From NCBI GenBank assembly GCA_012798065.1, contig JAAZNW010000052.1, positions 1 to 37,992 of the forward strand: a DNA stretch of 37,992 bases, read 5' to 3'. The notes under the pieces were generated by a model. That model was given only the letters and a program-made list of their open reading frames with translations, had not been told where the DNA came from and ran no database searches. Of the stretch, positions 3,804-22,873 are shown piece after piece (position 1 is the first letter of the stretch; the number at the start of each line of letters is the position of its first letter). The DNA comes from Chloroflexota bacterium (GTDB lineage Bacteria; Chloroflexota; Anaerolineae; Anaerolineales; Anaerolineaceae). Position numbers and translations under genes: made by a program.

Positions 3804-4820
3804 TTACAGGTCCACTTCACGCACCTGCACCGGGCGTCCTTCATCCAAGGAAAGGGTAGCGGCAATGCCAATAGCGGTAGCCGCGCGCGCGTCTTCCCCG
3901 GTAACCTCGGGCGGTGTGTCTTCCAGAATGTGCTTCACGAACACCCGTACCTGCTCGGCGTAGGCTGAACCAAAACGCTCCATAAAGTACGGCACTGTAT
4001 CGTGCATGACCCCTGCGCGGGTCAGCACCAGGGTCGGGGTTTGTTGCAGGTAACCGATCCAAAGGCTGCCATCTGTGCCCAGTACCTCCGTGCGGATGTC
4101 GTAACCATACACGGCGTTGCGGCTTAAATCGATGTTTCCAATCGCATCATTGGTAAAGCGCAGGTTGATGACGACATTGTCGATATCCCCCACCTCTTTA
4201 AGCTCTGGAAAAGCCAGGCAGGCGCCTTCGCTGTGCACACGGGCGACTTCGCTGTCCATCAGCCAGCGTGCTAAATCGAAATCGTGCACGCCCATATCCA
4301 GGATCAACCCGCCGCTATTCTCACGTTTGGCGAACTCCAGGCTGGTGCGTTTGGGGTCGCGGCTGGTGGATTTGAACATCACCGGTTTGCCGATGACGCC
4401 ATCGAGAATTTTTTGTTTCGCCGCAGCGTAAGGGGCGTCAAAGCGGCGCATAAAGCCCATCTGCAGCTTAACCCCAGCCTGCCTGACCGCTTTCAGCGCT
4501 TCGTCGCATCGCTGAAGGTTCTGTGAAAGCGGTTTTTCGCTAAAGATATGCTTGCCCGCCTGCGCCGCGGCGGCGATCACTTCGGCGTGCGTACCGGTGG
4601 GAGACGCCACAACAACAGCCTCGACCTCCTGGCTGCCCAACAGGTCGCGATAATCCTGGTAAGTGGAAGGGATGTGGTAACGATCCGCCACCTCGGCGAG
4701 CGCTGCGCGGTCAGGATCAGCCACTGCAACCAGGTCCACTTCGGATACGGAGAACGCCAGCGTGCTGGCATAAACCCTGCCCATTCTCCCTGCGCCGATC
4801 AATCCTATCTTCACCGCCAT
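3804..4820 (-). CDS. Second inositol dehydrogenase-like Gfo/Idh/MocA oxidoreductase
   Basis: A 338-aa paralogue of the iolG product from the same operon. It has GAGRMG at residues 9-14, EKP with Lys96, and the Asp175/His179 pair in the same Asp-x3-His spacing, so it should be catalytically competent. It also keeps GDIDNVV and RNAVYGYD stretches. It probably handles another inositol stereoisomer (scyllo- or D-chiro-inositol, as IolX/IolW do elsewhere) or interconverts isomers with IolG. Substrate cannot be read from sequence. The start is ATG with a GAGGTGAA site. It lies between iolE and iolD with short gaps of 26 and 30 bases, consistent with one transcript. Confidence 0.85.
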   Translation of the reverse strand: MAVKIGLIGAGRMGRVYASTLAFSVSEVDLVAVADPDRAALAEVADRYHIPSTYQDYRDLLGSQEVEAVVVASPTGTHAEVIAAAAQAGKHIFSEKPLSQNLQRCDEALKAVRQAGVKLQMGFMRRFDAPYAAAKQKILDGVIGKPVMFKSTSRDPKRTSLEFAKRENSGGLILDMGVHDFDLARWLMDSEVARVHSEGACLAFPELKEVGDIDNVVINLRFTNDAIGNIDLSRNAVYGYDIRTEVLGTDGSLWIGYLQQTPTLVLTRAGVMHDTVPYFMERFGSAYAEQVRVFVKHILEDTPPEVTGEDARAATAIGIAATLSLDEGRPVQVREVDL

Positions 4821-4850: not shown

Positions 4851-6716
4851 TCAAAGGAAATATTTCTCGTCTTTCAGGTGCGCTTCGTAATCTTTACGCG
4901 CCGCCTGAACCTCAGGCATGGTTGATACTTCTGCCACAGCCACGTCCCACCAGGATTCGTAACCCGGTACTCTCACCTCGCGGTCGGCTTTAATGACAAT
5001 CACCGAGGTATGGTCAAGTGACCTGGTATGTGCGAGAACTTTACGAAAGTCCTCGATGGAGCCAGGCGTAAATACTTCAGCGCCCAGGCTGGCGGCGTTG
5101 GCAGCAAAATCCACCTCCAGCGCAGGGCCATTAAGCTGACCGGTTTGCGGGTCGCGTTTCCTAAAACGAGTTCCGAAGCCGGAGCTGCCCAAAGAGGCGC
5201 TCAAACCGCCAATCGACCCAAAACCAGCGTTATCGACCACGATGATGGTTACCTTCAAACCCTCCTGCGCAGCGGTGAGGATCTCGGTGGGATTCATCAG
5301 GTAGGTACCGTCGCCCACCCACACGTACACCTCGCGCTCAGGCGCTGCCAGCTTCACACCCAGCGAGGCAGGAATTTCATATCCCATGCAGGAGTAACCA
5401 TACTCCATATGATAGGAGTTGGGTGTGCGCGCACGCCACAACTTGTGCAGGTCGCCGGGTTGGCTGCCCGCGGCTGACATCATCACATCGCTGTCGGCAA
5501 TTGTTTCCCAGATGGCGCCAATGATCTCGCTCTGAGCGGGTAAAGGCTGGTGGCGGAGATGATACAGGCGGTCGGTTTCAACTTCCCATTCGTGTTTGAG
5601 TTCGCGAATGCGGGTAGCGTAATCGGCTGATACCTGGTAGTCAGCGAGAGCCGAGGTCAATTCTTCCAGCGTCGCACGCGCGTCTGCGGTGAGTGCCAAC
5701 CCTGAATGCTTAAAAGCGTCCATCTCAAACAGGTTGATATTGATGAAGCGCACCGCGGGATTCTGAAAGGCGGTTTTACTGGCAGTGGTGAAATCGGAGT
5801 ATCGTGTGCCAATGCCAATCACCAGGTCGGCGCCATGCGCGATGCGGTTAGCAGGCAACGTGCCAGTGGCACCGATCGCGCCCAGGCACTGGGGGTGGTC
5901 GTAAGCCAGTGAACCCTTGCCCGCCTGAGTCTCTCCCACGGGAATGCCGGTTTGCCTGGCAAAGGCGTCAAGCGCCTGGCTGGCGCCGCTGAACAGCACC
6001 CCACCGCCGGCGACGATCAATGGCTGTTTGGACGAACGGATCATTTCAACCGCGCGTTTTAAAAGCGCGCGGTCTGCCAGCGGTCGAGCGACCATCCAAA
6101 CACGTTTGCGGAAGAATTCAAGCGGGTAGTCGTAGGCTTCAGCCTGCACATCCTGCGGCAGCGAGAGCGTCACCGCCCCGGTATCCGCAGGGGAGGTGAG
6201 CACGCGCAGGGCTTCAGGCAAAGAGGTGAGCAGTTGGTCAGGGCGGGTGATGCGGTCCCAGTAACGCGATACAGGTTTGAAGCAATCATTTACGCTAATA
6301 TCCTGCGTGTTAGGAGATTCCAACTGTTGCAGCACTGGCGCCACGTTACGGCGCGCAAAAATATCTCCGGGCAGCAGCAGCACAGGCAGGCGGTTGATGG
6401 TAGCCAACGCCGCCCCGGTGACCATGTTGGTGGCGCCAGGACCAATGGACGATGTACAGGCGAAGGTTCGCAGGCGGTTGTGCATTTTGGTAAAACCGCT
6501 GGCGATATGCACAGCGGATTGTTCGTTGCGTACCATGATGTAGCGAAAATCAGGGTTTTCTTGCAGCGCCTGGCCGATACCCGCCACGTTGCCATGACCA
6601 AAGATACCCAGCATACCAGCAAAGAAAGGGGTTTCAATTCCATCCCGCTCGATATACTGGTTCTTAAGGAAGCGGACAAGGGCTTGCGCCATTGTAAGTC
6701 GGATGGTGGAGGTCAT
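4851..6716 (-). CDS. iolD: ThDP-dependent trihydroxycyclohexanedione hydrolase (IolD)
   Basis: This 621-aa thiamine-diphosphate enzyme opens the ring of 3D-(3,5/4)-trihydroxycyclohexane-1,2-dione to give 5-deoxy-glucuronate. The length and the long N-terminal region starting near MAQALVRFL match IolD rather than acetolactate synthase. The activating Glu is Glu65 in VRNEQSA, and the C-terminal ThDP/Mg motif starts at GDG near residue 470 and runs to the NAGFGS segment. The IolD-typical CTSSIGPGATNMVTGAA segment is present. The start has an AAAGGAGAG site. The gap to the transaldolase-family gene upstream is only 18 bases. Confidence 0.93.
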   Translation of the reverse strand: MTSTIRLTMAQALVRFLKNQYIERDGIETPFFAGMLGIFGHGNVAGIGQALQENPDFRYIMVRNEQSAVHIASGFTKMHNRLRTFACTSSIGPGATNMVTGAALATINRLPVLLLPGDIFARRNVAPVLQQLESPNTQDISVNDCFKPVSRYWDRITRPDQLLTSLPEALRVLTSPADTGAVTLSLPQDVQAEAYDYPLEFFRKRVWMVARPLADRALLKRAVEMIRSSKQPLIVAGGGVLFSGASQALDAFARQTGIPVGETQAGKGSLAYDHPQCLGAIGATGTLPANRIAHGADLVIGIGTRYSDFTTASKTAFQNPAVRFININLFEMDAFKHSGLALTADARATLEELTSALADYQVSADYATRIRELKHEWEVETDRLYHLRHQPLPAQSEIIGAIWETIADSDVMMSAAGSQPGDLHKLWRARTPNSYHMEYGYSCMGYEIPASLGVKLAAPEREVYVWVGDGTYLMNPTEILTAAQEGLKVTIIVVDNAGFGSIGGLSASLGSSGFGTRFRKRDPQTGQLNGPALEVDFAANAASLGAEVFTPGSIEDFRKVLAHTRSLDHTSVIVIKADREVRVPGYESWWDVAVAEVSTMPEVQAARKDYEAHLKDEKYFL

Positions 6717-6734: not shown

Positions 6735-7814
6735 TTACAGGTCGGGGTTGGGGAGCATGAAATCGCGTACCACTCCCTGCAGTTCATGGTAAGAACTGAT
6801 AAATCCGCGCAAGGTTCTCACGGTGGCACCATAGGTGTCAAATTGCGCTACTGTCATACCATCCGGTTCGTATGCCTTGCGGAATTCAGGTATTTTGCTG
6901 AGCAGCGCCTTAACGATGATGGGGTCGACCGGGTCTGCCATGCGCGGACGAACTTCGATGTCGCTGGCGTTAATCTTGAGCTGCCATTCATAAGGGATGG
7001 TGAGGATGACATCGCCACCAATGAACTCAGACCAGTGTCCCAGGTGGCGGTAAGCTGCTGCCAGCAGCCTGGGGCGGTACCCCTTTTCCTTGTAAATTTC
7101 GTAAGCGCGTTTAAAGCAGGCGATGCCCGCCCAATCGAGGAAAGCAGGGTCAATATCAACCGCGTTCTTTTTGGCCGCTACCTTCACCCAGTCATCCGTG
7201 CGCCCCACCATAATGGTGCAGACGGGCGACATCTCAGCGATGGATTTCCCTTCAGCGCTGCGCCGCTCAAGCCCCCGTTCCATGGCTTGCGCCACCGCCA
7301 AAGCCTGAGAAACGCTAAAACACACGGTGGCGTTGATGGATACCCCGTGGTAAGTGGCTTCTTCTATTGCTTTTACACCGGCGCTGGTAACCGGGGCTTT
7401 CACCTGCATATTCGGTGCCAGGGTGGCAAAGTGAATGGCATGCTCGGCAATGCCCCTGGCGTTGCGGTAAAGCTGCGGGTTGGTCTGAATGGAAAGCCGG
7501 CCTTTCTTCCCTCGCTCACGGTCAAAGGCGGGCTTAAGCAACCCGGCTCCGCGCACAGCCATTTCCTCGATCAATTTCCAGGTGATCTCCACCTCAGACC
7601 AGATCGGGTTTTCCGCAATGATCTGATGAATACGCTCTTCCCACAGGTTCATTTCCTTTTTAAGCACATTGGCCACGATTGTGGGGTTGGTAGTGGCACC
7701 AACCGCGCCGTGTTCAACCGCGTAAGTTAATTCTTCTATGGAACAGGAGTCATTCCAGTAATCGGTGGGGGTCGTTGAGACTGTCTCGTGCAATTTGCTC
7801 TTATAGGTGGTCAT
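6735..7814 (-). CDS. Transaldolase-family Schiff-base aldolase in the inositol operon
   Basis: A 359-aa transaldolase-like protein. By alignment to E. coli TalB from memory, Asp22, Asn43 (in TTNPT), Lys139 (QVKAP, Schiff-base Lys), Asn161/Thr163 and Ser167 occupy family positions. The catalytic Glu of transaldolases (TalB Glu96) appears replaced by Gln110 (SIQTNP). Gln is what fructose-6-phosphate aldolase has there, which points to aldol cleavage or an altered acceptor step. It lies between iolB and iolD, where iolC/iolJ would be expected to complete the pathway. The inferred role is cleavage of 2-deoxy-5-keto-gluconate to malonate semialdehyde plus a dihydroxyacetone unit. Canonical pentose-phosphate transaldolase is the alternative. 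The start ATG has an AAAGGAG site. Confidence 0.8.
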   Translation of the reverse strand: MTTYKSKLHETVSTTPTDYWNDSCSIEELTYAVEHGAVGATTNPTIVANVLKKEMNLWEERIHQIIAENPIWSEVEITWKLIEEMAVRGAGLLKPAFDRERGKKGRLSIQTNPQLYRNARGIAEHAIHFATLAPNMQVKAPVTSAGVKAIEEATYHGVSINATVCFSVSQALAVAQAMERGLERRSAEGKSIAEMSPVCTIMVGRTDDWVKVAAKKNAVDIDPAFLDWAGIACFKRAYEIYKEKGYRPRLLAAAYRHLGHWSEFIGGDVILTIPYEWQLKINASDIEVRPRMADPVDPIIVKALLSKIPEFRKAYEPDGMTVAQFDTYGATVRTLRGFISSYHELQGVVRDFMLPNPDL

Positions 7815-7825
7815 TTTTCACTCCT

Positions 7826-8704
7826 TTACTTGTAGTTCATGGATAATTGGACAAGCGGCAGGCGCGGATCCTTGCTCTTCCAGGTGTCTTTGATCCAGGC
7901 GTATGCCGGGTCGTCGCTGCTGGCAAGAGACTGGTCTGAGCCCGCGAGAATGTTCAGGTAGTAAGCCGTGTAACCGTGGGCAGCCACCACGGGGTGATAT
8001 CCCTCGGGTGATAAGACGAGGTGGTCATTTTGCACCAGCATAATTTCGTCGATGCGGCGGTCATCTGTGTAACAGCGCTGGTAAGCGTAACCTTCAGGTT
8101 TATCGATTTTGTAAAAATAAATTTCTTCCAGGTCAGCCTCCAGCAGCCGGCCATTTTCATCCACGCGACGCACATCGTGCTTGTGCGGTGGGTAAGAGCT
8201 CCAGTTGCCAGATGGCGTGTAAACCTCTACCACCACCAGGCGCTCACACGGAAAACCCGGAAGAATCATCTGGTTGATCTGGCGTGAAGCGTTCTCGCCG
8301 CCGCGCAGTTCAACTTTCACCTCTTCAGGGCTGACCAACCGCGCCGGAAAATCTTTTGTAGCGGCAGCCCAGCCGCAGGCGAAATCGACCGCACCGTAAG
8401 CGGCCGTAACGGTGAAATCGGTATCGCGGGATAGGTAAAGGGTGGTAGGCATGCCATGAAACACATCTGTCCGGCTGCCAATGGATCGCCACGCTCCGCG
8501 GTTCGAGTGCACATCAAGCGTTCCGCCAAGGATGACCAGCGCCAGTTCGTTGTTTTCAGTATTAAAATGCCATTCCTCGCCTTGTTTAAGCCTGACAGCG
8601 CAGAAAGACAAATGTTCCCAGCCAACGCTTTTCGGGGTCACCCGGATATACTCTGCACGGGTGAGATCTGGTTTAACCAGTAAAGAAGATTCGGTAGATT
8701 TCAC
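7826..8704 (-). CDS. iolB: 5-deoxy-glucuronate isomerase (IolB)
   Basis: This 292-aa bicupin protein converts 5-deoxy-glucuronate to 2-deoxy-5-keto-gluconate. The diagnostic IolB segment GNWSSYPPHKHD is present in the C-terminal cupin, along with YFYKIDKPEGYAYQR and a late GYHPVVAAHGY motif that supplies further metal ligands. Length is slightly above the usual 270. The start is GTG at 8704. Its AAAGGAG site overlaps the end of the lacI-type gene, and the two genes are separated by three bases, so they are translationally linked. Its product is the proposed substrate of the neighbouring transaldolase-family enzyme. Confidence 0.93.
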   Translation of the reverse strand: MKSTESSLLVKPDLTRAEYIRVTPKSVGWEHLSFCAVRLKQGEEWHFNTENNELALVILGGTLDVHSNRGAWRSIGSRTDVFHGMPTTLYLSRDTDFTVTAAYGAVDFACGWAAATKDFPARLVSPEEVKVELRGGENASRQINQMILPGFPCERLVVVEVYTPSGNWSSYPPHKHDVRRVDENGRLLEADLEEIYFYKIDKPEGYAYQRCYTDDRRIDEIMLVQNDHLVLSPEGYHPVVAAHGYTAYYLNILAGSDQSLASSDDPAYAWIKDTWKSKDPRLPLVQLSMNYK

Positions 8705-8707
8705 TTT

Positions 8708-9736
8708 TTACTCCTTTGCAAATTGAGCGGTCGATTTTCTTACCAGCAATTCACCGCGCATCATCTTATTGAGAGGTTTTCTGCGCGACTGTGATGAAGC
8801 ATTGGAGCTGATAAGTTCCAACAACATGCTGGCGGCCTCATCACCTATCGAGCGTTTGGGCTGGTCGAAGGTGGTTAAAGCGGGAGTGGTGTAGGCTGAA
8901 TAGGGGATGTTATCAAAACCAGCGATGGAAATATCTTCAGGGACCCGCAGCCCATTTTGTCGCAACACGCTCAGCGCGCCGACTGCCATGAGGTCGTTAA
9001 AGCAGAATACGGCTGAAAAGGGAACACCGGCGCCGAGGAGGGCGGTCATACCGGCCGCGCCGTTTTCAATTTCACCACCAGGTTGGTGGGTAATCCAGTT
9101 TTCTGCCACCGTAAAACCCGATGACTCGCATTCAGCCTTTAATCCCTGTAAGCGGTTATCGTTGATGCGCGGAGCGCAGGCGTTTCCCAGATAAGCGATG
9201 CGTCGGTGGCCGAGGTCAAGCAGGTGGCGCGTGACCTGCCTGGCGCCATATTCATCATCGTGCGAAATCGAGTATTTTTGCGAACGCGCAGACTGGTTAT
9301 TGATGACCACTGCCGGGATTCCATACTGGTTAAGCAGGTTGAGATTGCTGCGCTCAACCGGTACCGAACCAATGATGACCCCGTCCACCCGATGTTCACT
9401 GAAGGCTTGAACAATCTCTTTTTCTTTTTGTGGGTCGAGAGAAGACGAGGCAATGAAAATGCTGTATCCGCTATTTCTGATGGCGTCTTCAATGCCCTGG
9501 ATGATCTCGCCAAAATAGGGATTGTCAATGCGGCTGACCAGCACCCCTAACACCCCGGAACGCCTGGTTTTAAGCCCCCGGGCAGCGGCACTGGGCAGGT
9601 AGCCCAGGTCTCCGGCGATATTCCGGATCATGGCGGCGGTTTTGGGCGGGATGACAGGGTTGCCATTGAGCGCCCGCGAGACTGTGGTGTGTGAAACGCC
9701 AGCGACCTTTGCAATATCTTTTATCGTGACACCCAT
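8708..9736 (-). CDS. LacI-family transcriptional regulator of the inositol operon
   Basis: A 342-aa LacI/GalR-type repressor. The N-terminal helix-turn-helix and hinge are clear (TIKDIAKVAGVSHTTVSRAL near residues 4-23, then a PSAAARGLKT hinge near 53), followed by a periplasmic-binding-protein-like ligand domain to the end. It is the first gene of the inositol operon, and its promoter overlaps a 12-bp palindrome at the predicted transcription start, so autoregulation and inducer control by an inositol derivative are likely. It probably also controls the divergent cluster through repeats in the shared intergenic region. The start ATG 9736 is preceded by a GGAG site. Confidence 0.92.
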   Translation of the reverse strand: MGVTIKDIAKVAGVSHTTVSRALNGNPVIPPKTAAMIRNIAGDLGYLPSAAARGLKTRRSGVLGVLVSRIDNPYFGEIIQGIEDAIRNSGYSIFIASSSLDPQKEKEIVQAFSEHRVDGVIIGSVPVERSNLNLLNQYGIPAVVINNQSARSQKYSISHDDEYGARQVTRHLLDLGHRRIAYLGNACAPRINDNRLQGLKAECESSGFTVAENWITHQPGGEIENGAAGMTALLGAGVPFSAVFCFNDLMAVGALSVLRQNGLRVPEDISIAGFDNIPYSAYTTPALTTFDQPKRSIGDEAASMLLELISSNASSQSRRKPLNKMMRGELLVRKSTAQFAKE

Positions 9737-9871: not shown

Positions 9872-9971
9872 AACATTGAAATGTTAGGCCAGCAATGCAT
9901 TTCGCCTGAGCCTCACCGCCCTGGACACGCCTGAACTTCTATAAGAATCGACCTCGTGAAAGGATATGGAT

Positions 9972-10715
9972 ATGAACCCTGACATCGAAGCCATCTTTCT
10001 GGACGTAGGCAATACGTTACGCATCGTGCTGGAAGAGCCTGATTTCCAACAGAACGCCATGCAGGAGTTAATGCGCCTGGTTGGAACGCTAGAATCCCAG
10101 GAAGCCTTCTTTGAAAAACTGGAGACCCGCTGGAAAGCTTACCGTAAAGCCTCCAAGGCGTCTTTGCTGGAATCGCCCGAGGAAATTTTATGGACAAAAC
10201 ATCTGCTGCCCGACTACCCGGCGGAAAAGATAGCCCCCCTGCACGGCAGGCTAACGCGCCTTTGGCGCGACCGGGATGGACGGCGCGTTCCGCGGCACGA
10301 CGCCAAAGAGACCATCATTGAGCTGCACCGCCGGGGTTACCTGCTGGGCATTATCGCCAACACCATCACTGAAACGGAGATTCCCGATTGGATGGAAGCG
10401 GATGGTGTGACCCAGTATTTCAAAACCGTCATCCTTTCCTCCAAAGTGGGCATTCGCAAACCAGACCCCGAAATCTATTGGATGGCAGCGCGCCAAATTG
10501 GCGTGGAACCCGCCAAATGCGCCTACCTGGGCGACAACCCGGTGCGCGATGTGGAAGGAACGCGCGCGGCCGGGTTCGGCATGATGATCCTTTTCGATGA
10601 ACCCGCCACACTGGCAAAAGAACCACCCACGGGTGAGCACACTCCCGATTACACCATCAAAGAGATCAGGGAACTATTAGATATCTTCCCGCCGCGAAAC
10701 CGCCAGGTGAATTAA
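9972..10715 (+). CDS. HAD-superfamily hydrolase 1 (D-x-G-x-T variant)
   Basis: About 247 aa. The HAD motif I reads FLDVGNTL near residues 9-16, with nucleophile Asp but Gly at the +2 position where most HAD phosphatases have the acid/base Asp. Motif II is the IIANT strand, motif III Lys is in RKPDP, and motif IV is YLGDNPVRD. A helical cap lies between motifs I and II, with a W/Y-R-K and LWTKHLLPDYP signature shared with the other HAD genes here. ATG 9972 is preferred over ATG 9966 because the AAAGGA site is only one base from the latter. It is the first gene of the rightward operon. The substrate is unknown. Confidence 0.85.
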   Translation: MNPDIEAIFLDVGNTLRIVLEEPDFQQNAMQELMRLVGTLESQEAFFEKLETRWKAYRKASKASLLESPEEILWTKHLLPDYPAEKIAPLHGRLTRLWRDRDGRRVPRHDAKETIIELHRRGYLLGIIANTITETEIPDWMEADGVTQYFKTVILSSKVGIRKPDPEIYWMAARQIGVEPAKCAYLGDNPVRDVEGTRAAGFGMMILFDEPATLAKEPPTGEHTPDYTIKEIRELLDIFPPRNRQVN

Positions 10716-10724: not shown

Positions 10725-11459
10725 ATGGATATCGACGCCATTTTTCTCGACATCGGCAACACCTTACGGATATTGATGAAAGAAGAGCCGTATCGTGAAG
10801 AAGCGCGTCAGAAAATTGCTGCGCTGGTTGGCACAAGCCAACCGCCGCAATCGTTCAGCGAGGAGCTGGATCGGCGTTACAAGGAATACCGCAAGTGGGC
10901 TTTTGAACACCTGGTTGAGGCTTCAGAAGAAGAATTGTGGACGCGCTGGCTGGTGCCTGAGTTCCCGGCCCAACACATCGCGCCACTGGCGCACGAACTC
11001 ACCTACCAGTTCCGCCAATCCATGGGGCGGCGGGTGATGGCGGATGGCTGCACGGAAGTCATTCATGAATTGCACAGCCGCGGTTACACGCTGGGAATCA
11101 TCAGCAATGTCATCACTACCAGCGAGATTCCCGATTGGCTCGCCGCTGAGAATCTTTCGCGGTATTTCAAATCCGTCCTTCTCTCCTCTACCTTCGGGCG
11201 GCGTAAACCAGATCCATCCATCTATCTGGAAGCCGCCCGAAGGGCTGAAGTTGCACCAGCAAAATGCGCCTACGTGGGCGACAATTTCTCTCGTGATGTA
11301 GCTGGAACCAGGGCAGCCGGCTTTGGCATGGTGATCATCCTGCCAGACCCGGCGGAAAAAGACCTCAGGGTTGCGCCGGAGCAACAACCAGATCTGGTGA
11401 TTCACAGCCTGTGGGACTTGCTGGATCACTTTCCGCCCAGAAATGGACACCAGGAGTAA
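10725..11459 (+). CDS. HAD-superfamily hydrolase 2 (D-x-G-x-T variant)
   Basis: A 244-aa close paralogue of the preceding gene, clearly a tandem duplication. Motif I is FLDIGNTL with Asp9 and Gly11, the cap has YRKW and LWTRWLVPEFP, motif III is RRKPDPS and motif IV YVGDNFSRD. All but the second motif I Asp are intact. It starts 9 bases after its paralogue with no strong ribosome binding site, suggesting translational coupling. The next gene begins two bases after its stop codon. Confidence 0.85.
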   Translation: MDIDAIFLDIGNTLRILMKEEPYREEARQKIAALVGTSQPPQSFSEELDRRYKEYRKWAFEHLVEASEEELWTRWLVPEFPAQHIAPLAHELTYQFRQSMGRRVMADGCTEVIHELHSRGYTLGIISNVITTSEIPDWLAAENLSRYFKSVLLSSTFGRRKPDPSIYLEAARRAEVAPAKCAYVGDNFSRDVAGTRAAGFGMVIILPDPAEKDLRVAPEQQPDLVIHSLWDLLDHFPPRNGHQE

Positions 11460-11461: not shown

Positions 11462-13069
11462 ATGCCGAAATCAGCAGGTATTTCACTCGAAAACACAAAT
11501 CGCGCCAGAGGAAGTGCGGCGCTGGCAAAAACGGTGAAGGACCTGTACGAGCGGGGGCAAACCGATTACAACATGGAGCCGATCATCCTGCAAGACGCGG
11601 CAGGAAATGCGGTCGGTCGGATCAAAGATGGCGATGCGGTGGTCTTCTGCTGCCGCCGTGGAGAGCGTGAAATCCAACTGACCGAAGCCTTTACTGACCC
11701 CCAGCTGAACCAATTCCCGCGTGAGGTGTTCACCCATCTCCCCTTTGTGATTCTCACTCTGTATCATGACAAGTTTAAAGACCTGCCGGTGGCGTTCGCG
11801 CCTTCAAAAGTCCAGGCGACCCTGGGCGAGGTAGTGAGCCAGGCGGGTTTTTCACAGGTGCGCATTGCTGAATCAGAAAAATTCGCCCACGTGACCTTTT
11901 TTTTGAACGGCGGCAACAACCAGCCATACCCACAAGAAGAAGATATCCGTATACCTTCTTTGAAAGGCGTTCCTTTTGATCAATACCCGGAATTAAGCCT
12001 GGAGAAGGTTGCACAGGCTGTCATAGAAGCCATTCACAGGGGGACAGGCCTGGTGGTGACCAATTTTGCGAATGGGGATGTCATCGGGCACACTTCCAAT
12101 AAAGCAGCGAAGATCGCCTGCGCGCAGTTTGTAGACCGGCACCTGCGCGAAGTGGTAGAAAAGGCTAACGCGGCGGGTTATGTGGTCATCATCACCGCGG
12201 ACCACGGCAACCTGGAAGTGTTGGAAAACGCGGACGGTTCAGCGCATGTTTCTCACACCACCAACCCGGTCTCTTGTCTGATCATCGATCCGGCAGCCGC
12301 GGAGACGGTCACCCCGCGTGAGGGCAAGCTGGCGGACATCGCTCCGACAGTGTTGAGCATCCTGCGGGTAACCCCGCCGGCGCAAATGACAGGAAAGAAC
12401 CTGGCGCCGGAGCATGACTTTGGGGTTGACCGTAAAGTCTTGCTGGTCATCCTGGACGGTTGGGGAATCAGCGGCGTTCCTGAGAACGATCCAATTGCTA
12501 TGGCGGAGACGCCTTTCTGGGATAGCCTGCTGGCGCGTTACCAGCATTCGCTCCTGGAGGCCTCAGGTGAAGCCGTGGGGCTGAAAGCCGGCAAAGCAGG
12601 AAACTCAGAAGCTGGACACATCAACATTGGCGCCGGCAGGGTCGTTTTGCAGGATGATGTGCGCCTGGATAGGGCGATGCAGGATGGCTCTTTCTACACC
12701 AACGAGGTCATCTGTGACGTCATTGAAGGCGTAAAAGCGCGCGGGAAGAACCTCCACCTCATCGGGCTTTTGACTGAAAAAAGCTCGCACGGCTCCATGG
12801 AATACCCCCTGGCGGTTTTGAAAATGGCCAAAGACGCCGGCTTGCAGCATGTTTTCCTGCATATGATATTGGATGGACGCAGCACTGAGCCCGGAAGCGC
12901 GCCCGCGCTTTTGAAGAAACTGGAAGATTTAATGAATGAAATCGGCGTCGGGCAGATCGTCACGGGTATTGGACGCGGTATCGCCCTCGACCGCGACGGT
13001 AATTACAATAAGACGCAAATCGCCTACGACGCGCTGGTCTATGGAAAAGGCAGGGGAGCCGGTAAATGA
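11462..13069 (+). CDS. Circularly permuted iPGM-type phosphoglycerate mutase
   Basis: A 535-aa protein made of both halves of cofactor-independent phosphoglycerate mutase in reversed order. Residues ~20-315 match the normal C-terminal part: R66-x2-R69 (the FRPDR position), SEKFAHVTFF (Lys140), NFANGDVIGH (Asp206, His210), ADHGN (Asp247, His248), HTTNPV (His265), DIAPTVL. Residues ~325-530 match the normal N-terminal part: LVILDGWG (Asp332), GNSEAGH (nucleophile Ser382), LDGR (Arg473), GRGIALDRD (Arg505, Arg511), YDALVYGKG. Metal-site spacings equal the family's (332 to 382 = 50; 206 to 247 = 41; 247 to 265 = 18). Ser474 replaces the usual substrate-binding Asp after Arg. ATG 11462 has an AGGAG site. 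A 3-/2-phosphoglycerate or other phosphomutase role is inferred. Confidence 0.9.
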   Translation: MPKSAGISLENTNRARGSAALAKTVKDLYERGQTDYNMEPIILQDAAGNAVGRIKDGDAVVFCCRRGEREIQLTEAFTDPQLNQFPREVFTHLPFVILTLYHDKFKDLPVAFAPSKVQATLGEVVSQAGFSQVRIAESEKFAHVTFFLNGGNNQPYPQEEDIRIPSLKGVPFDQYPELSLEKVAQAVIEAIHRGTGLVVTNFANGDVIGHTSNKAAKIACAQFVDRHLREVVEKANAAGYVVIITADHGNLEVLENADGSAHVSHTTNPVSCLIIDPAAAETVTPREGKLADIAPTVLSILRVTPPAQMTGKNLAPEHDFGVDRKVLLVILDGWGISGVPENDPIAMAETPFWDSLLARYQHSLLEASGEAVGLKAGKAGNSEAGHINIGAGRVVLQDDVRLDRAMQDGSFYTNEVICDVIEGVKARGKNLHLIGLLTEKSSHGSMEYPLAVLKMAKDAGLQHVFLHMILDGRSTEPGSAPALLKKLEDLMNEIGVGQIVTGIGRGIALDRDGNYNKTQIAYDALVYGKGRGAGK

Positions 13070-14271
13070 ACTACGAATTCCTCAAGAAACTGATCCAACC
13101 GGCGGATACCAAAATCGTTATGCTCATCATGGATGGGCTAGGAGGGCTACCTAAAGAACCCGGCGGTAAAACTGAACTGGAAACAGCTCATACCCCTCAT
13201 ATGGATGCCCTGGCTGCTCGGTCGGCATTGGGCTTTTCCAGCCCTGCGGGGGCGGGCATCGCAGTGGGCAGCGGGCCTGGGCACCTGGCCATCTTCGGTT
13301 TTGACCCGATAGAGCACGAGATTGGCCGCGGCGCGCTGGAAGCCTTAGGGGTTGATATTGACCTGGGGGCGGAAGATATCGCTGCCCGCGGCAACTTCTG
13401 CAAGGTGGACGCTAATGGCATATTAACAGACCGAAGAGCGGGCCGGCTCGCAACTCCTGAAGCCTTCAGGCTGGCAAAGATGCTAAACAGCATCGCCATC
13501 GACGGCGTTCAGATACAGGTTGAGCCAATCAAAGAACATCGTTTCGCGCTGGTCATGCGGGGCGAGGGTTTGGCGGCGAAGATTTCAGACACCGACCCGT
13601 TGGTGGAGGGCGTTGCTCCCAGGCAAGCGGTTGCGCTGGACCAGGCCTCTGAAAAAGCCGCGCGGTTGGTCAATACGTACATCCAAAAAGCGCGAGAAAC
13701 ACTCCGTTTTGAAGAACCGGCAAATATGGTGCTTTTACGCGGGTTTGACAAACTGCCTGTGCTTCCTCAGTACGGGGAGCTTTTCAAGTTGCGTGCTGCT
13801 TCTATAGCGGTGAACGGCATGTATAAAGGCGTTTCCAGGCTGGTAGGCATGCAGGTATTACCGGTGGACGGCGTAACCATCGAGGATGAATTTTCAACGC
13901 TGGAGATGTTTTGGGAGCAGTTTGATTTCTTTTACCTGCACATCAAACAAACCGATACCCATGGCGAAGATGGAGACTTCGACCGTAAGGTCAAGGAGAT
14001 CGAGCGCGTGGATGCCCAGATCCAGCGCATGCTCAACCTTCAACCGGATGTGGTGCTGATTACCGGCGACCATTCTTCCCCGGCGATCCTGCGGTCGCAC
14101 AGCTGGCACCCTGTTCCAGCCCTGTTGTACGGCAAATATGTTCGCGAAGATGGGATTGCTGAATTTGGCGAAAGAGCCTGCGCGCGCGGCAGCCTGGGCG
14201 TACTGCCGGCTACAGATTTTTTGCCGCTGCTGCTGGCAAACGCTGGCAGAGTCGCCAAATACGGAGCGTGA
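13066..14271 (+). CDS. apgM: Archaeal-type cofactor-independent phosphoglycerate mutase (ApgM)
   Basis: A 401-aa member of the ApgM branch of the alkaline-phosphatase superfamily, distantly related to iPGM. Features are VMLIMDGLGG (metal Asp23), GIAVGSGPGHLAIFGF with nucleophile Ser69, an Asp-x2-His-type metal segment (KQTDTHGEDGDFD near residues 295-307), ITGDHSSP and HSWHPVP. Length is normal for the family. It overlaps the stop codon of the permuted iPGM gene by ATGA, so the two are translationally coupled. Two unrelated-sequence phosphoglycerate-mutase-like enzymes made from one coupled message are redundant for glycolysis, so at least one may act on another phosphate ester. Confidence 0.88.
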   Translation: MNYEFLKKLIQPADTKIVMLIMDGLGGLPKEPGGKTELETAHTPHMDALAARSALGFSSPAGAGIAVGSGPGHLAIFGFDPIEHEIGRGALEALGVDIDLGAEDIAARGNFCKVDANGILTDRRAGRLATPEAFRLAKMLNSIAIDGVQIQVEPIKEHRFALVMRGEGLAAKISDTDPLVEGVAPRQAVALDQASEKAARLVNTYIQKARETLRFEEPANMVLLRGFDKLPVLPQYGELFKLRAASIAVNGMYKGVSRLVGMQVLPVDGVTIEDEFSTLEMFWEQFDFFYLHIKQTDTHGEDGDFDRKVKEIERVDAQIQRMLNLQPDVVLITGDHSSPAILRSHSWHPVPALLYGKYVREDGIAEFGERACARGSLGVLPATDFLPLLLANAGRVAKYGA

Positions 14272-14274: not shown

Positions 14275-15186
14275 ATGGAAGACCAAACTATCACTTCTGA
14301 TCAAGTAGCGCTTCAATCAAACTCAAAAGAGATGGATTTTGCACGGCTTATCAGTGAACAATATCAAACGCTCACCAAGAGCGAGAAAATGATCGCCAAC
14401 TTTTTACGTAAGAACCAGGAGGAGAGCGCGTTCCTTTCAGCGGGTGAGATCGCCAGACGCCTGGATTTGAGCGAAGCGACGCTGGTGCGTTTCGCGCGCA
14501 CCCTTGGCTTTAACAGTTACCCGGCGATGCGCTCTTTGCTGCAAGAAAACTTCCGCCAGCGCGTCACCCACTCCGCCCGCTTACGCGGTAGGTTGGATGA
14601 GATGCGCCAGAATGGCGGCATTTTTGAACGCGTAACCGCTACGGAGATCGACTATCTCACCCAGGCGCTGAATTCGATAGACCGCGATCAGTTCAACAAG
14701 GCTGTGGAGCTGATCAAAACAAATGAGAAGGTCTATGTGTTTGGCGTTGGACCCTCGATCACGCTGGTAGACCTGATGGAAATCAGGCTGCGCCGTTTTG
14801 GCAAAGAAGTGGTTCCGCTCAAAGCGTATGGGCGGGAAGTTGTCGACTTCATGTTGGCCATGAAACCCGGTGACCTGGTTTTTGTCATTTGTTTCTTTGA
14901 CCAAAACCCCACGCTGCACCTGGTGCTGGATTACAGCCGCAAGGTTGGCGCCACGGTGATTATGTTGACGGACACGCTGGAGACCATTCTGGGAGACTCG
15001 GCAGATGTGATTTTGAGCGCGCGTCGTGGACCGGTTGGGGCGTTCCACTCGCTGGTGGTGCCCATGACGGTGATCAACGCGCTGCTGCTTTCAGTTGCCA
15101 GTTTAGACCAGGAGCGGATTATGCCAGCACTGGATAAATTGGATTCCCTGCGCGGTCAGCTGAAGGAATTAAACCGGGCAGGATGA
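14275..15186 (+). CDS. RpiR-family regulator with sugar-phosphate-binding SIS domain
   Basis: This 303-aa protein has an N-terminal RpiR helix-turn-helix domain (about residues 22-98, with LSAGEIARRLDLSEATLVRFARTLGF-type motif) and a C-terminal SIS domain (about 140-270, containing VYVFGVGPS). SIS domains of RpiR regulators bind phosphorylated sugars, so the effector is probably an intermediate or imported substrate of this cluster. It lies three bases after apgM and just upstream of the ABC importer genes, making the importer its likely target. Start ATG 14275. Confidence 0.92.
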   Translation: MEDQTITSDQVALQSNSKEMDFARLISEQYQTLTKSEKMIANFLRKNQEESAFLSAGEIARRLDLSEATLVRFARTLGFNSYPAMRSLLQENFRQRVTHSARLRGRLDEMRQNGGIFERVTATEIDYLTQALNSIDRDQFNKAVELIKTNEKVYVFGVGPSITLVDLMEIRLRRFGKEVVPLKAYGREVVDFMLAMKPGDLVFVICFFDQNPTLHLVLDYSRKVGATVIMLTDTLETILGDSADVILSARRGPVGAFHSLVVPMTVINALLLSVASLDQERIMPALDKLDSLRGQLKELNRAG

Positions 15187-15264: not shown

Positions 15265-17100
15265 ATGACAGTAACATCAATTGAACCAAAGGACAACAAG
15301 GAAAAGTGGCTGGCTCGCCTGCGTCGCTTTTTCCGCTGGTTGACCTCGCCGCATGTGGTTCTTTCCATCATCATGGTTGCGGTGATGTTCTACCTGGTCA
15401 TCATACCGCTTTATCGCATGGTCGTCACTACTATCACGGTAGCGGATGTTGACCTGAGGGCGATCAGAGGTGCTGAAGTAGGCGACTTTACCTGGTATCA
15501 CTGGGTGAGAATGCTCACAGGCAAGATCGGCAAACTGATGACTTATCAACCAGCGATGCATAGCATAGTGGTTGCCCTGGGAGCAACCTTCCTGGCGTTA
15601 GCGGTTGGCGGGTTGATGGCGTGGCTGGTGTGCCGCACAGATATCCCGGGACGCGATACCATACATATGCTGGCGCAGGTGCCCTATATCATGCCTTCGT
15701 GGACCATCGCGATGGCCTGGCTGGTGCTCTTTAAGAACCAGAAATCAGGGGGCACCATGGGGCTGCTGGAATTTATTACTGGCGCGCCCACACCAGACTG
15801 GTTGGCGTATGGCCCAATTCCCATCATTGTGAGCAGCGGGTTGCATTACTACACCTTCTTTTTCCTGTTCATCGCGGCGGCGCTCCTGTCGATTGATTCA
15901 TCGCTTGAAGAAGCGGGCGAGCTGGCGGGAGCGGGGCGCTGGCGCATTATGCGGAAAATTACCTTCCCGCTGGTTATCCCTGCTATCGCATCAGGTTTCA
16001 TTATGACCTTTTCGAAGGCCATGGGCACCTTTGGCGGACCGAACGTCCTGGGGGTGCCTGTCCGTTATTACACCCTTTCGACCATGTTGAGATCCAATTC
16101 TTCCATCGGCAACTATGGCGACGCCTTTGTGACCGCCATTGTGCTGATCTTGTTTGCCATGGTCACCGTGATGTTAAATCAAAAGATCGTGGGCACGCGA
16201 AAAAGTTATGAAACGATCGGTGGTCGTGGGTTTATGTCGAAGAAGACCAAGTTGAGAAATTTTAAGCCAATTATCGTCGCTATCGTGGTCATCTTTCAGT
16301 TCATTATCGCTGTGTTGCCCTTGGTGCTGCTGGTCTACAGCACATTCATGCTGAGAGATGGAAAATGGACGCTGGACAACTTCACTCTCGCTCACTGGAT
16401 TGGAAAGGGCGATCTCTCGATCAACAGCGGTGAACCGGGCATCCTGCTCAATCACAAGGTTTGGTTGGGTGCCTGGAACTCCGTTCGTTTGTCCATCCTT
16501 ACCGCCCTCTTCACCGCGCTTTTTGGAGTGGTGTTAGGGTACGCGATTGTCAAAGGGCGCGGAACCTGGCTTTCGAAAATCGTGGAACAGATGTCCTTTA
16601 TCCCTTACGTCATCCCGGGCATCGCTTTTGGCGCGGTATACATCGCCATGTTCACCAAACCTGTTGGCCCCATCCCGGCGCTGTACGGCACCTTCGCGTT
16701 GTTGGTGGTGGTTTCGGTAGCCAAGCACCTGCCTTTCTCAGCGCGCAGCGGTGTTTCTGCCATGATGCAGGTGAGCAAAGAACTGGAAGAGGCAGCAATG
16801 CTGGCTGGTGCGTCTCCCTGGAGGCGTTTCGCGCGCATCGTCTTTCCGCTCACCAGCACCGGTTTTGTTTCTGGTTTTCTACTGACATTCATCACCACGA
16901 TGCGCGAACTCTCTCTCATTATCCTGCTGGTCACCCCCACCACAGCAGTGCTGGCGAGCATGACCATGCGGTACATTGAAAATGGCAACGACCAACAGGC
17001 GAATGCCGTCATTATCTTGTTGATCGTGCTGGTACTGATCGGCAACTTTATTATTAGCCGCTTCCGTGGCGGCAGTCTGAAAAAAGGGCTGGGACTGTAA
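15265..17100 (+). CDS. Fused ABC importer permease (Fe3+/aminoethylphosphonate/sugar-phosphate class)
   Basis: A 611-aa membrane protein with two tandem BPD permease domains of roughly six membrane segments each. The two ATPase-contacting EAA loops are visible near residues 213 (EEAGELAGAGRWRIM) and 507 (EEAAMLAGASPWRRF). This fused layout is typical of FbpB-like and PhnV-like permeases. Members of this class import ferric iron, 2-aminoethylphosphonate or, in AfuB, hexose phosphates. In this setting a phosphorylated organic substrate is the better guess. The start ATG is preceded by a weak AAGGTG site, and the 78-base gap from rpiR shows no terminator. Confidence 0.9.
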   Translation: MTVTSIEPKDNKEKWLARLRRFFRWLTSPHVVLSIIMVAVMFYLVIIPLYRMVVTTITVADVDLRAIRGAEVGDFTWYHWVRMLTGKIGKLMTYQPAMHSIVVALGATFLALAVGGLMAWLVCRTDIPGRDTIHMLAQVPYIMPSWTIAMAWLVLFKNQKSGGTMGLLEFITGAPTPDWLAYGPIPIIVSSGLHYYTFFFLFIAAALLSIDSSLEEAGELAGAGRWRIMRKITFPLVIPAIASGFIMTFSKAMGTFGGPNVLGVPVRYYTLSTMLRSNSSIGNYGDAFVTAIVLILFAMVTVMLNQKIVGTRKSYETIGGRGFMSKKTKLRNFKPIIVAIVVIFQFIIAVLPLVLLVYSTFMLRDGKWTLDNFTLAHWIGKGDLSINSGEPGILLNHKVWLGAWNSVRLSILTALFTALFGVVLGYAIVKGRGTWLSKIVEQMSFIPYVIPGIAFGAVYIAMFTKPVGPIPALYGTFALLVVVSVAKHLPFSARSGVSAMMQVSKELEEAAMLAGASPWRRFARIVFPLTSTGFVSGFLLTFITTMRELSLIILLVTPTTAVLASMTMRYIENGNDQQANAVIILLIVLVLIGNFIISRFRGGSLKKGLGL

Positions 17101-17112: not shown

Positions 17113-18198
17113 ATGGATACCCCAATCGTCATTAATAACCTCACCAAGAAGTTTGGCGATGTCATCGCCGTCAATAATGTTTCATTGCGTATTGAACCTC
17201 ACACATTTTTAACGCTGCTCGGTCCTTCTGGCTGCGGTAAAACCACCCTGCTGCGCTGTATTTCCGGTCTTGAAGACCCGGATGAGGGCGAGATATATAT
17301 TGGTGATACGCTTATCTATTCTCATGCGAAAGGGATATCTGTGCCGCCCGGGCAGCGGGAACTGGGAATGGTCTTTCAGAACTACGCTTTGTGGCCGCAC
17401 ATGACGGTGTATAAAAACATGACCTTCGCTTTGGAAATTCAGAAACTGCCCAAGGCTGAAATGGACAAGCGCGTGAAAGAATCACTTGAAGAGGTGAAGA
17501 TGAGCGGGTATGAAAACCGCTACCCGCGTGAGATGAGCGGCGGTCAACAGCAGCGTATTGCGCTGGCGCGTATGCTGGCTTACCGCCCGAAGGTCTTTTT
17601 GATGGATGAACCTCTTTCCAATCTGGACGCTCGTTTGCGTATGGACATGCGCACCGAGCTGAAACGCCTGCACCATATTTCAGACGCCACCACCGTGTAC
17701 GTGACACATGACCAACTGGAAGCCATGACCATGTCCACCAACATCGCCGTCATGAAAGAAGGGGTCATTCAACAAATGGACACGCCAGACATGATCTATC
17801 ATTACCCCGCCAACCTGTTTGTGGCTGATTTTATCGGTAACCCGAAGATCAACCTTCTGAAAGGCTGGGTTTCGAGTGAGGATGTGGTTGACCTGGGTAA
17901 GTTCAACATCCCCGCGTATACACACAGAAAGACCGGTGATGTGGTGGCAGCTTTCCGCCCGGAGGACATCACTATCCACACTGAGCCGGTTGAAGGTGGG
18001 GTGGAATTCAGCGCTTACTCTGTACAACCATCCGGTGCCGATACCACGATCATCGCGCACAAAGGCGATACCGAGATCATTGTCAAAGAAATGGGTGTCA
18101 GTAAGATTGCCATGGACCAGAAGATCTGGTTGACCTTTAATAAAGAGGCCATTAACCTTTATGATAAGGCGACAGAAAAATTGATAACAGGTTCGTGA
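17113..18198 (+). CDS. ABC importer ATP-binding protein
   Basis: This 361-aa ATPase powers the adjacent permease. Walker A GPSGCGKT is at residues 37-44, followed by a Q-loop (VFQNYALWPH), signature MSGGQQQR, Walker B VFLMDEP, D-loop SNLDAR and H-loop VTHDQ. The C-terminal third is a TOBE-type regulatory domain typical of FbpC/UgpC-like proteins. An AGAGGAG site lies 5 bases before ATG. It starts 12 bases after the permease stop codon. Confidence 0.93.
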   Translation: MDTPIVINNLTKKFGDVIAVNNVSLRIEPHTFLTLLGPSGCGKTTLLRCISGLEDPDEGEIYIGDTLIYSHAKGISVPPGQRELGMVFQNYALWPHMTVYKNMTFALEIQKLPKAEMDKRVKESLEEVKMSGYENRYPREMSGGQQQRIALARMLAYRPKVFLMDEPLSNLDARLRMDMRTELKRLHHISDATTVYVTHDQLEAMTMSTNIAVMKEGVIQQMDTPDMIYHYPANLFVADFIGNPKINLLKGWVSSEDVVDLGKFNIPAYTHRKTGDVVAAFRPEDITIHTEPVEGGVEFSAYSVQPSGADTTIIAHKGDTEIIVKEMGVSKIAMDQKIWLTFNKEAINLYDKATEKLITGS

Positions 18199-18226: not shown

Positions 18227-18236
18227 GGAGGTGATC
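18227..18236 (+). promoter_or_regulatory. Extended anti-SD complement upstream of the binding-protein gene
   Basis: GGAGGTGATC, a ten-base perfect complement of the bacterial 16S rRNA 3' end, lies 64 bases before the ATG of the binding-protein gene, which has its own AAGGAGGAAGG site. In between, a six-codon GTG frame (18250-18270) abuts a ten-codon ATG frame (18271-18303) whose TGA overlaps the real ATG. This looks like a ribosome standby site or mini-ORF relay that raises binding-protein synthesis, which is inference. Confidence 0.4.
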
Positions 18237-18299
18237 GTATCGTCTTTTGGTGTCGTTTTCTGTCTGTTGAATGTTCAAAATAAACAAGGAGGAAGGTCA

Positions 18300-19532
18300 A
18301 TGAAAGCAGTAATTCGAATTGCAACACTTGTATTGTTGGTTAGCTTCCTGGCGGCCTGCGCGAAACCTACTGCGGCTCCCGTGGTTGAACCGCCGGTGGT
18401 TGAAGAACCCGTCGTAACGGAAGCCCCTGTGGTGGAGGAATTGACAGCCCAACAGCAGTGGTTGAAAGACAACCAGCTTGGCGAATACTACACCGACGAA
18501 CAGGACTGGGCGGCCATAGAGGCGGCGGCGATTGCAGAAGGTGAAGTGCTGGTGTACGCGAACACATCCAAAATTGAAAAATCGGCAAAAGCCTTCATGG
18601 AAAAATACCCCGGGATCAATGTGCAGGCGTTTGACCTGGGCGGAGATGATGTGCTGCTAAAAACGGTAGAAGAACAGAAGGCTGGCGCCTTCACTGGTGA
18701 CGTGTGGTCAAGCAGCGGTGGGGCTGAATTGGTTGGGAATGTGTTGCCTAAGGGTTATGTATGGCGATTTATCCCCTCCACTGTTGCGGATAGGATTCCA
18801 GAGCAATATACTCATCCTCTCTTGATGGCACGATTGGGCACCGCCGTGTTCGCGTACAACTCAGAATTAAACGATACATGCCCCATCACCAACATCTGGG
18901 AGCTCACACAACCTGAATGGAAGAACAAGTTCTTCATTGAAGACCCGATCAACGATGCTTCAACACTCAGCAAACTCCTCACCCTGGTAAGTCATTCTGA
19001 AGAAATGGCCGCAGCCTATGTTGAGCTGTATGGCACCGAGCCAGTTCTGGAAGAGGATACTCCTGACGCGGGTTGGCTGTGGCTGAAAAAATTCGCTCAG
19101 AATGGACCAATCCCGCAGCCAGGCGGCGATGAGGTGGATGAGGCGTTCGCTACTCCTGGAATGAAAGAAAGCTATATGGCCATCACTTCCTACTCCAACA
19201 TGGCCGATGTGATGGAAGGCAACCTGGTATTTGAACCCTGTTGGGGAATCAAACCCATCCTTGGTATTCAGAGCCAGAGTTACCTGGGCATCATCAACCA
19301 GGCGCCCCACCCCAACGCGGCCAAACTTTGGATCGCCTGGCAGGTGAGCGAAGAAGGCCGCAAACCCTGGGCGAAATTCGGAACTTACTTCACAGATTCC
19401 ACTTATGAAGTTCCTGAAGGGCAAAAACCGCTATCTGAGATGATGGCAGTGACCTGGTTCATTGACGAACAATTCGCCTACGATCACATGATCGAAGCCC
19501 GCGACTTCTACTTAATCAATCTGGCAGAGTAA
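18300..19532 (+). CDS. ABC importer substrate-binding lipoprotein
   Basis: A 410-aa extracellular solute-binding protein family 1 member. The N-terminus is a lipoprotein signal with LAAC lipobox, acylated Cys20. Residues ~24-48 are a Pro/Val/Glu-rich linker of near-repeats that tethers the domain to the membrane. The mature domain from ~70 resembles FbpA/AfuA-type proteins (GEVLVYANTSKIEKSAKAF near the start). ATG 18300 follows an AAGGAGGAAGG site; the in-frame GTG 18231 would bury the signal sequence and is rejected. It is the third gene of the transporter, placed last. Substrate is unresolved: iron, aminoethylphosphonate or sugar/polyol phosphate. Confidence 0.9.
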   Translation: MKAVIRIATLVLLVSFLAACAKPTAAPVVEPPVVEEPVVTEAPVVEELTAQQQWLKDNQLGEYYTDEQDWAAIEAAAIAEGEVLVYANTSKIEKSAKAFMEKYPGINVQAFDLGGDDVLLKTVEEQKAGAFTGDVWSSSGGAELVGNVLPKGYVWRFIPSTVADRIPEQYTHPLLMARLGTAVFAYNSELNDTCPITNIWELTQPEWKNKFFIEDPINDASTLSKLLTLVSHSEEMAAAYVELYGTEPVLEEDTPDAGWLWLKKFAQNGPIPQPGGDEVDEAFATPGMKESYMAITSYSNMADVMEGNLVFEPCWGIKPILGIQSQSYLGIINQAPHPNAAKLWIAWQVSEEGRKPWAKFGTYFTDSTYEVPEGQKPLSEMMAVTWFIDEQFAYDHMIEARDFYLINLAE

Positions 19533-21106: not shown

Positions 21107-21132
21107 TCCATAACGAATGAATAAGGAAACGA

Positions 21133-22845: not shown

Positions 22846-22873
22846 CTTAACGGTAAGAAAGGATACGTTCTTT

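Follow-up and report, generated by a model that had tools for sequence, protein, structure and literature searches.

Closest described systems

Among described enzymes, the ordinary cofactor-independent phosphoglycerate mutases (iPGM/GpmI; TIGR01307; structures 1ejj, 1o98, and 5kgn) stand closest to the protein reported here, a circularly permuted paralog that we call cp-iPGM. Relative to iPGM, cp-iPGM has its halves swapped and Asp154 (numbered as in ordinary iPGM) replaced; the branch to which it belongs, group A, carries KSSHG for GGVHS and RRGER for FRxDR, and its gene lies in a context of phosphatase, transport, and inositol genes. The archaeal-type phosphoglycerate mutase (aPGM; TIGR00306) is likewise a member of the alkaline phosphatase superfamily, and an aPGM gene adjoins that of cp-iPGM in the window, i.e., the whole stretch of 37,992 nucleotides of Chloroflexota DNA that was analyzed. 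However, aPGM has the ordinary order, is shorter, and contains a different insert domain (PF10143), and aPGM models match cp-iPGM weakly over one short stretch. Against phosphopentomutase (DeoB; PF01676), cp-iPGM scores low, at no more than 35 bits with DeoB models and 44 bits with PRK12383. To our knowledge, no permutation has been described in phosphopentomutase.

PGM3 belongs to a superfamily unrelated to that of iPGM. For the human protein and its orthologs (alpha-D-phosphohexomutases), passages of PMC5570346 describe a naturally occurring circular permutation in which the active site keeps its position; PGM3 is also a permuted phosphomutase, but its shift involves about 60 residues within domain 1 and not half the protein. 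The string "permut" does not occur in the accessible parts of two papers on iPGM evolution and variants (PMC2964296 and PMC12077085). Open-access matches for circular permutation together with phosphoglycerate mutase, available as excerpts, dealt with glutathione synthetase, Rossmann-like folds, human PGM3, and GH70 enzymes, with no permuted iPGM among them, and combining circular permutation with the alkaline phosphatase superfamily gave a match on SGNH hydrolases, as a listing entry. No open-access match for a circularly permuted iPGM was obtained.

Excerpts of PMC7618129 on phytate breakdown by Mitsuokella report that Ins(2)P accumulates as an intermediate, and they name a phytase and an inositol transporter for inositol-phosphate degradation; under the reading proposed below, the overall task would be the same, leading from inositol phosphate through inositol to an inositol gene cluster. 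The words "mutase" and "haloacid" are absent from the available main text of that paper, as is "mutase" from the main text of PMC12482443. The literature searched gave no match for an inositol phosphate mutase and, among the matches listed, no title on such a system.

Gene structure and swapped domain order

The cp-iPGM gene and its parts are located as follows.

11462..13069, + strand: cp-iPGM (circularly permuted iPGM paralog), 535 amino acids, one uninterrupted frame of 535 codons
11531..12403, + strand: cp-iPGM residues 24-314, equivalent to ordinary iPGM 219-508 (phmmer to 1ejj)
12404..12433, + strand: cp-iPGM residues 315-324, linker between the old C and N termini (gap between the two phmmer stretches)
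12434..13051, + strand: cp-iPGM residues 325-530, equivalent to ordinary iPGM 5-210 (phmmer to 1ejj)

The best match of cp-iPGM among PDB chains in phmmer was the iPGM of Bacillus stearothermophilus, found as two stretches in swapped order, and the swapped halves were seen in Pfam and NCBIfam matches too. We take residues 24-314 to be the second half of domain B followed by the C-terminal part of domain A, and residues 325-530, within which the nucleophile Ser382 lies, to be the N-terminal part of domain A followed by the first half of domain B. In a structure search against the PDB (VIA second look), the iPGM rows each spanned one half of cp-iPGM. The N-half-to-C-half order of iPGM is not that of cp-iPGM. 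The iPGM equivalog model TIGR01307 was nevertheless passed, with a total of 490 bits against a cut-off of 330.65 as two swapped stretches, whereas the second iPGM model, NF003897, was not reached (385 versus 862 bits). Pfam at an E value of 0.001 gave PF01676, the metalloenzyme branch of the alkaline phosphatase superfamily (203.6 bits; gathering score, 24.3), and PF06415 only, with no phytase or inositol-monophosphatase family. Since the TIGR01307 cut-off is passed, automatic naming would probably yield a glycolytic phosphoglycerate mutase (PGM), despite the lost Asp154 and the different context.

On these alignments, the protein is a true paralog of cofactor-independent phosphoglycerate mutase in circularly permuted form. 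The permutation claimed in the preliminary description is thus borne out and reaches a whole multi-phylum family, and the alignment to 1ejj places the break in domain B and the linker where that description had put them; its remark that no permutation was known in the iPGM family agrees with the open-access literature, mostly excerpts, to which our search was limited. A textbook glycolytic enzyme has here been circularly permuted in nature, and the permuted form is found in several phyla.

Remodeled substrate side around an intact catalytic center

Residues were compared in 86 group A rows, 11 rows of a second permuted subfamily (group B), and 17 rows of ordinary enzymes. The metal ligands and the serine nucleophile were present throughout: equivalents of Asp12, Ser62, Asp403, His407, Asp444, His445, and His462 are kept in 86/86 A, 11/11 B, and 17/17 ordinary rows, and so are those of Arg153, Arg261, Arg264, Lys336, and His123. 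Arg185 and Arg191 are likewise kept, apart from a gap in one ordinary row. The retained arginines presumably bind phosphoglycerate in ordinary iPGM.

The position of Asp154 departs from this pattern, being Asp in all 17 ordinary rows, Ser in all 86 of group A, and Gly in all 11 of group B, so that this residue is lost in 97/97 permuted proteins. Asp154 presumably participates in catalysis in ordinary iPGM; the literature searched made no mention of its role. The GGVHS loop of most ordinary enzymes is replaced by KSSHG in group A (Lys in 84 rows and Arg in 2) and by YSSHG in group B, and FRxDR becomes RRGER in group A. At 15 positions, the residue conserved among ordinary enzymes has given way in group A to a different, invariant one, and many of these positions lie in active-site motifs or adjoin active-site residues. 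Because its pocket has gained Arg65 and Lys440 and lost Asp154, we infer a more anionic substrate for group A than for ordinary iPGM, and the missing Asp154 would tip the balance to hydrolysis or to another acceptor.

Gene neighborhood in the window and across loci

The genes surrounding that of cp-iPGM in the window are listed below.

1840..2862, - strand: IolG (TIGR04380, 487 bits; cut-off, 355)
2875..3777, - strand: IolE-like (TIGR04379, 205 bits, below the cut-off of 290)
3804..4820, - strand: IolG, second copy (TIGR04380, 384 bits; cut-off, 355)
4851..6716, - strand: IolD (TIGR04377, 910 bits; cut-off, 715)
6735..7814, - strand: transaldolase-like protein (PRK03343, 123 bits, below the cut-off of 367)
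7826..8704, - strand: IolB (TIGR04378, 330 bits; cut-off, 205)
8708..9736, - strand: LacI-type regulator, divergent from HAD1 (label by reading)
9966..10715, + strand: HAD1, phosphatase-like, conserved partner (profile matches and homologs across loci)
10725..11459, + strand: HAD2, phosphatase-like, ending 2 bases before cp-iPGM
13066..14271, + strand: aPGM, 4-base overlap with cp-iPGM (NF003160, 553 bits; cut-off, 468)
14275..15186, + strand: RpiR-type regulator (HTH_6 and SIS)
15265..17100, + strand: ABC permease (nearest NCBIfam model PhnU2, below cut-off)
17113..18198, + strand: ABC ATPase (nearest models UgpC and PhnT2, below cut-offs)
18231..19532, + strand: probable solute-binding protein of the same ABC transporter, start codon uncertain (weak Pfam SBP, below cut-off; no NCBIfam match)
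19676..21106, + strand: tandem HAD-HAD protein (two Pfam HAD stretches)
21133..22845, + strand: HAD fused to a xylose-isomerase-like TIM barrel (Pfam)
22874..24541, + strand: second HAD plus TIM-barrel-like protein (label by reading)
24560..25180, + strand: DUF47/PhoU_div protein (Pfam)
25185..26189, + strand: Pit-type phosphate transporter, PHO4 (Pfam)
26199..27095, + strand: PfkB-family kinase (Pfam)
27085..27963, + strand: metallo-beta-lactamase-fold protein (Pfam)
27972..29171, + strand: phosphoribulokinase/uridine-kinase-domain protein (Pfam)

An AGGAG precedes the ATG of cp-iPGM, and the 2-base gap behind HAD2 together with the 4-base overlap with aPGM led us to read cp-iPGM as a member of an operon. 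The HAD-HAD and HAD plus xylose-isomerase-like TIM-barrel fusions at 19676-24541 are an unusual domain pairing; in three other loci (L166, L167, and L168), the TIM-barrel-like genes are separate, as judged by similarity. Pfam gave no match for the N-terminal region of the protein at 27972-29171, and homologs of this protein sometimes occur twice near cp-iPGM.

Conservation of neighbors was assessed by clustering genes called by codon score within 6-kb flanks of 80 loci, a procedure that misses some genes. HAD phosphatase genes of one cluster occurred in 76/80 loci; tblastn additionally recovered a HAD at L046 and L069, where the called cluster lacked one, and left only L038 and L111 without a match. 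In 45 of the 56 loci outside Chloroflexota, HAD1 was 56-66% identical to that of the window over more than 180 amino acids, as high as the identity of cp-iPGM itself. Homologs of the LacI regulator were found in 53/80 loci and those of the PfkB kinase in 36/80, none of the latter in Chloroflexota within the 6-kb flanks, while aPGM (19/80) and the phosphoribulokinase/uridine-kinase-domain protein (15/80) were seen in Chloroflexota exclusively. Membrane proteins named by reading as H+-pyrophosphatase and as MgtC were each present in 20/80 loci.

A Levilinea isolate has genes matching the ABC importer, RpiR, HAD-fusion, DUF47, and Pit set of the window, so that the Pit phosphate transporter is found in both, and its inositol genes lie before HAD1 on the same strand. 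In eight loci (L081, L082, L085, L096, L097, L098, L108, and L110), a split transketolase pair follows cp-iPGM, after IolG if present, and an iron-type alcohol dehydrogenase follows the pair in 5/8, with a fragment in two more; these assignments are by clustering, with families scanned in L098 only. Group B was considered as part of the same gene module and rejected, since a search for a HAD/ABC array in its 12 regions revealed none.

Linkage to inositol catabolism

The position of IolG (inositol dehydrogenase) was surveyed in 50 carriers drawn from the best 80 of 195 relatives, a set biased to close relatives of the query. Left out of these 80 were L032-L034, L057, L058, L069-L072, L074, L075, L083-L085, L087-L090, L092, L094-L097, L099, L101, L102, L104, L105, L107, and L108. 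Among those omitted, L032-L034, L105, and L108 do have inositol genes in their vicinity. IolG scored over the cut-off in 34/50 carriers and was missing at that level in 16/50. It lay within 25 kb of cp-iPGM on the same contig in 15/50 carriers, compared with 0.66 expected under uniform placement, and within 5 kb in 7/50, compared with 0.16 expected; contig ends make these counts lower bounds, and the relatedness of the rows makes their P values too small. Within the 6-kb flanks, IolG was found in 9/80 loci and not in 71/80, many of these flanks being incomplete. Thus, cp-iPGM is linked to inositol catabolism in a manner that is not universal.

IolG was present in 16/29 Bacillota and Spirochaetota carriers versus 10/195 Oscillospirales noncarriers (Fisher P = 1.8 × 10−10), where the control is a single order, the carriers come from several, and the rows are not phylogenetically independent. 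Within Oscillospirales, IolG was found in 11/197 genomes and cp-iPGM in 2/197, one of the two with IolG. Of the Chloroflexota carriers, 18/21 had IolG (phyla by record title; the Oscillospirales control does not apply to them). IolD exceeded its cut-off in 70/298 genomes of the class but in only 1/9 of those with group A (G000); a strict inositol-only reading based on IolD was rejected on this count, which spoke against a link until IolG, IolM, and IolN were scored.

The adjoining inositol genes belong to different routes. The first, IolB/D/G, is that of the window and, by similarity, of L180 and Levilinea. A second was found at L178, with IolM (519 bits; cut-off, 450), IolN (305 bits; cut-off, 245), an adjoining IolG gene, and a mannonate oxidoreductase (377 bits; cut-off, 281); L179, L181, and L184 resemble L178 as far as the initial residues of their genes show. 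In Clostridia, the run comprises HADs, cp-iPGM, IolG, type II GAPDH, a PGK-like gene, malate racemase, IolE, a further gene, and IolD. This is a composite of two rumen Clostridia genomes, G397 (L100; IolG, GAPDH, racemase, and IolE scanned) and G399 (L106 and L187; PGK-like gene and IolD scanned). IolG scored 449 and 450 bits in the two genomes, and downstream on the same strand lay IolE in G397 (402 bits; cut-off, 290) and IolD in G399 (906 bits; cut-off, 715). Type II GAPDH, the PGK-like gene, and a LarAH6 malate racemase sit between IolG and IolE in L100, L106 (= L186, L187), and partly L110, and this run may constitute a novel inositol route that includes substrate-level phosphorylation.

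Proposed function of group A cp-iPGM

We propose, as the somewhat likelier reading, that group A cp-iPGM is an intracellular inositol-phosphate-processing enzyme acting through a phosphoserine at residue 382. The main reason is that routes sharing mainly inositol adjoin one and the same enzyme in separate lineages. According to this proposal, new termini would have arisen midway through domain B in a single permutation, with a short linker bridging the old ends. With the order read from sequence and the fold predicted, domain A would thereby run without a break, and the two ends of the chain would together make up domain B. This arrangement puts the cap domain at the ends of the chain and may have aided the taking of a new substrate. 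The permuted enzyme has lost Asp154 and its substrate-side motifs are altered, but it retains the two-metal/serine site for phosphoryl transfer and the basic residues on the substrate side. Group A would have become part of a module that also contains several HAD phosphatases and, at many loci, genes for an ABC importer, a PfkB kinase, and phosphate handling. The module would import an inositol phosphate, probably derived from phytate, strip its phosphates inside the cell, and hand free inositol to the adjoining inositol pathway. In it, cp-iPGM would most likely transfer a phosphate from the inositol phosphate to Ser382 and from there to another ring hydroxyl, as a mutase, or to water, as a phosphatase. 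The Ins(2)P of Mitsuokella is the kind of intermediate with which a mutase or a special phosphatase would help.

Several observations keep this function a proposal only modestly favored: IolG does not exceed its cut-off in 16 of the 50 carriers and is not seen in 71 of the 80 flanks, many of them incomplete, IolD exceeds its cut-off in a single one of the nine group A class genomes, the arginines are kept and allow a small phospho-acid substrate, and group B is without a HAD, ABC, or inositol-type context. Moreover, the adjoining aPGM in Chloroflexota could indicate phosphoglycerate chemistry, and cp-iPGM matches no known phytase family. A more specific and more doubtful version holds that group A cp-iPGM might be an inositol-phosphate phosphomutase, moving a phosphate out of reach of the HADs (e.g., the axial 2-phosphate left after phytate breakdown) to another ring position via phosphoserine-382, and at once the founding member of an intracellular system for inositol-phosphate import and stepwise dephosphorylation common to anaerobic Chloroflexota, gut Clostridia, and spirochetes; its circular permutation would also be the first natural case described for iPGMs. 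If the inositol-phosphate reading is true, these genes would represent a phytate-phosphorus route for anaerobes of the gut, rumen, and digesters, and the HAD and mutase genes are open to direct assay.

Alternatively, the substrate of cp-iPGM, as a permuted phosphatase or mutase, could be a different small organophosphate (a sugar-acid phosphate, phosphoglycerate, or glycerophosphate) imported by the PhnU2/UgpC-like transporter, with inositol genes alongside as sugar-type catabolic genes cluster. The nearest transporter models are for phosphonate and glycerophosphate uptake, all below cut-off, and this explanation accords as well with the retained basic residues, whose role in the substrate site we assume, with the aPGM in 19 Chloroflexota loci, and with the carriers lacking IolG. 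It is unlikely, however, in that genes of different inositol routes adjoin cp-iPGM in separate lineages and do so much more often than uniform placement would predict.

Other phosphoglycerate mutases in carrier genomes

All 22 of the 22 class genomes checked that carry group A or B also have another PGM gene. Each gave an aPGM match, over the cut-off in 20 and partial in the other two, and a dPGM was found in one (G000), whose sole aPGM is the one next to cp-iPGM. The genome of the window carries a cofactor-dependent PGM (402 bits) on another contig. Among seven genomes reached through loci, six (those of L060, L086, L068, L111, L109, and L078) contain an ordinary-order iPGM homolog, and in the seventh, Levilinea (G063), there are two metalloenzyme genes about as long as an aPGM gene, one of which adjoins cp-iPGM. 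Because a second aPGM lies elsewhere in the genomes G068, G137, and G301, the aPGM copy in the cp-iPGM operon may be specialized, too.

These data bear on the possibility that cp-iPGM is an ordinary glycolytic iPGM, permuted by chance and retained as a spare PGM. Its TIGR01307 total and its intact nucleophile, metal ligands, and basic residues are what such an enzyme would have, but the loss of Asp154 in every permuted protein aligned, the other PGM in the genomes checked, and the conserved position among HAD phosphatases make this quite improbable, and cp-iPGM is probably not a glycolytic phosphoglycerate mutase. Of the earlier characterization as an apparently active iPGM, the part concerning an intact metal/serine site therefore stands at the sequence level, whereas glycolytic PGM activity is improbable in view of the missing Asp154, the remodeled substrate-side motifs, and the other mutases just listed; the accompanying hint of an altered substrate is supported.

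Distribution and origin of the permuted copies

Relatives were collected from a species-genome collection by a scan seeded with exact peptides, which gave 195, the best 80 of which were kept as loci. The permuted order was found as a single colinear match in 80/80 kept loci, whose record titles name Chloroflexota, Bacillota, and one Sphaerochaetaceae MAG, with species and strain names on three (L039, L060, and L086). The window genome is a draft of 147 contigs; an assembly or annotation artefact fusing two half genes, raised at the outset as a join error, is nonetheless ruled out for practical purposes, since the 80 loci from other records share the order, the frame is uninterrupted, and a second permuted subfamily exists.

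In a set of 61 genomes, comprising that of the window and 60 close to it, a full-length permuted copy is present in seven besides the window's own, one (G004) has a permuted copy divided between two contigs, and three (G021, G031, and G045) have ordinary-order copies. An alignment search of 298 class genomes yielded three score groups: group A, the window's branch, in 9/298 (866-937 bits); group B in 13/298 (471-541 bits), likewise as single colinear matches; and 41/298 with 208-281 bits, where matches span one half at a time and the four looked at (L170-L173) have the ordinary order. Of the 13 group B genomes, 12 regions were taken (without G120) and 11 aligned (without L165, whose frame did not pass the filter).

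In a midpoint-rooted tree of 49 rows, with ordinary enzymes reordered and 21 of the 86 group A rows used, each of groups A and B was set apart by a branch of its own (100/100 for both), and a further branch (100/99) divided A plus B from the 17 ordinary iPGMs. Given this shared branch, a single permutation event for both groups is the simplest reading. The sampled Bacillota and spirochete copies nest within the Chloroflexota part of group A (100/99), which suggests lateral transfer of group A copies, and gut Flexilinea-type copies (L078 and L109) are interspersed with them. Plasmid-borne spread was rejected: 44 plasmid records match, all with less than 60% identity, ten listed matched in two pieces, and the four plasmid loci looked at (L142-L145) have the ordinary order.

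One genome (G375, that of L053) contains two cp-iPGM copies, at C102 and C8. The group B loci L154-L164 have Gly at the Asp154 position and LGRRG in place of LDGRD, with neighbors that are not constant; in L155, L157, and L159, the adjoining gene was read as a histidine phosphatase.
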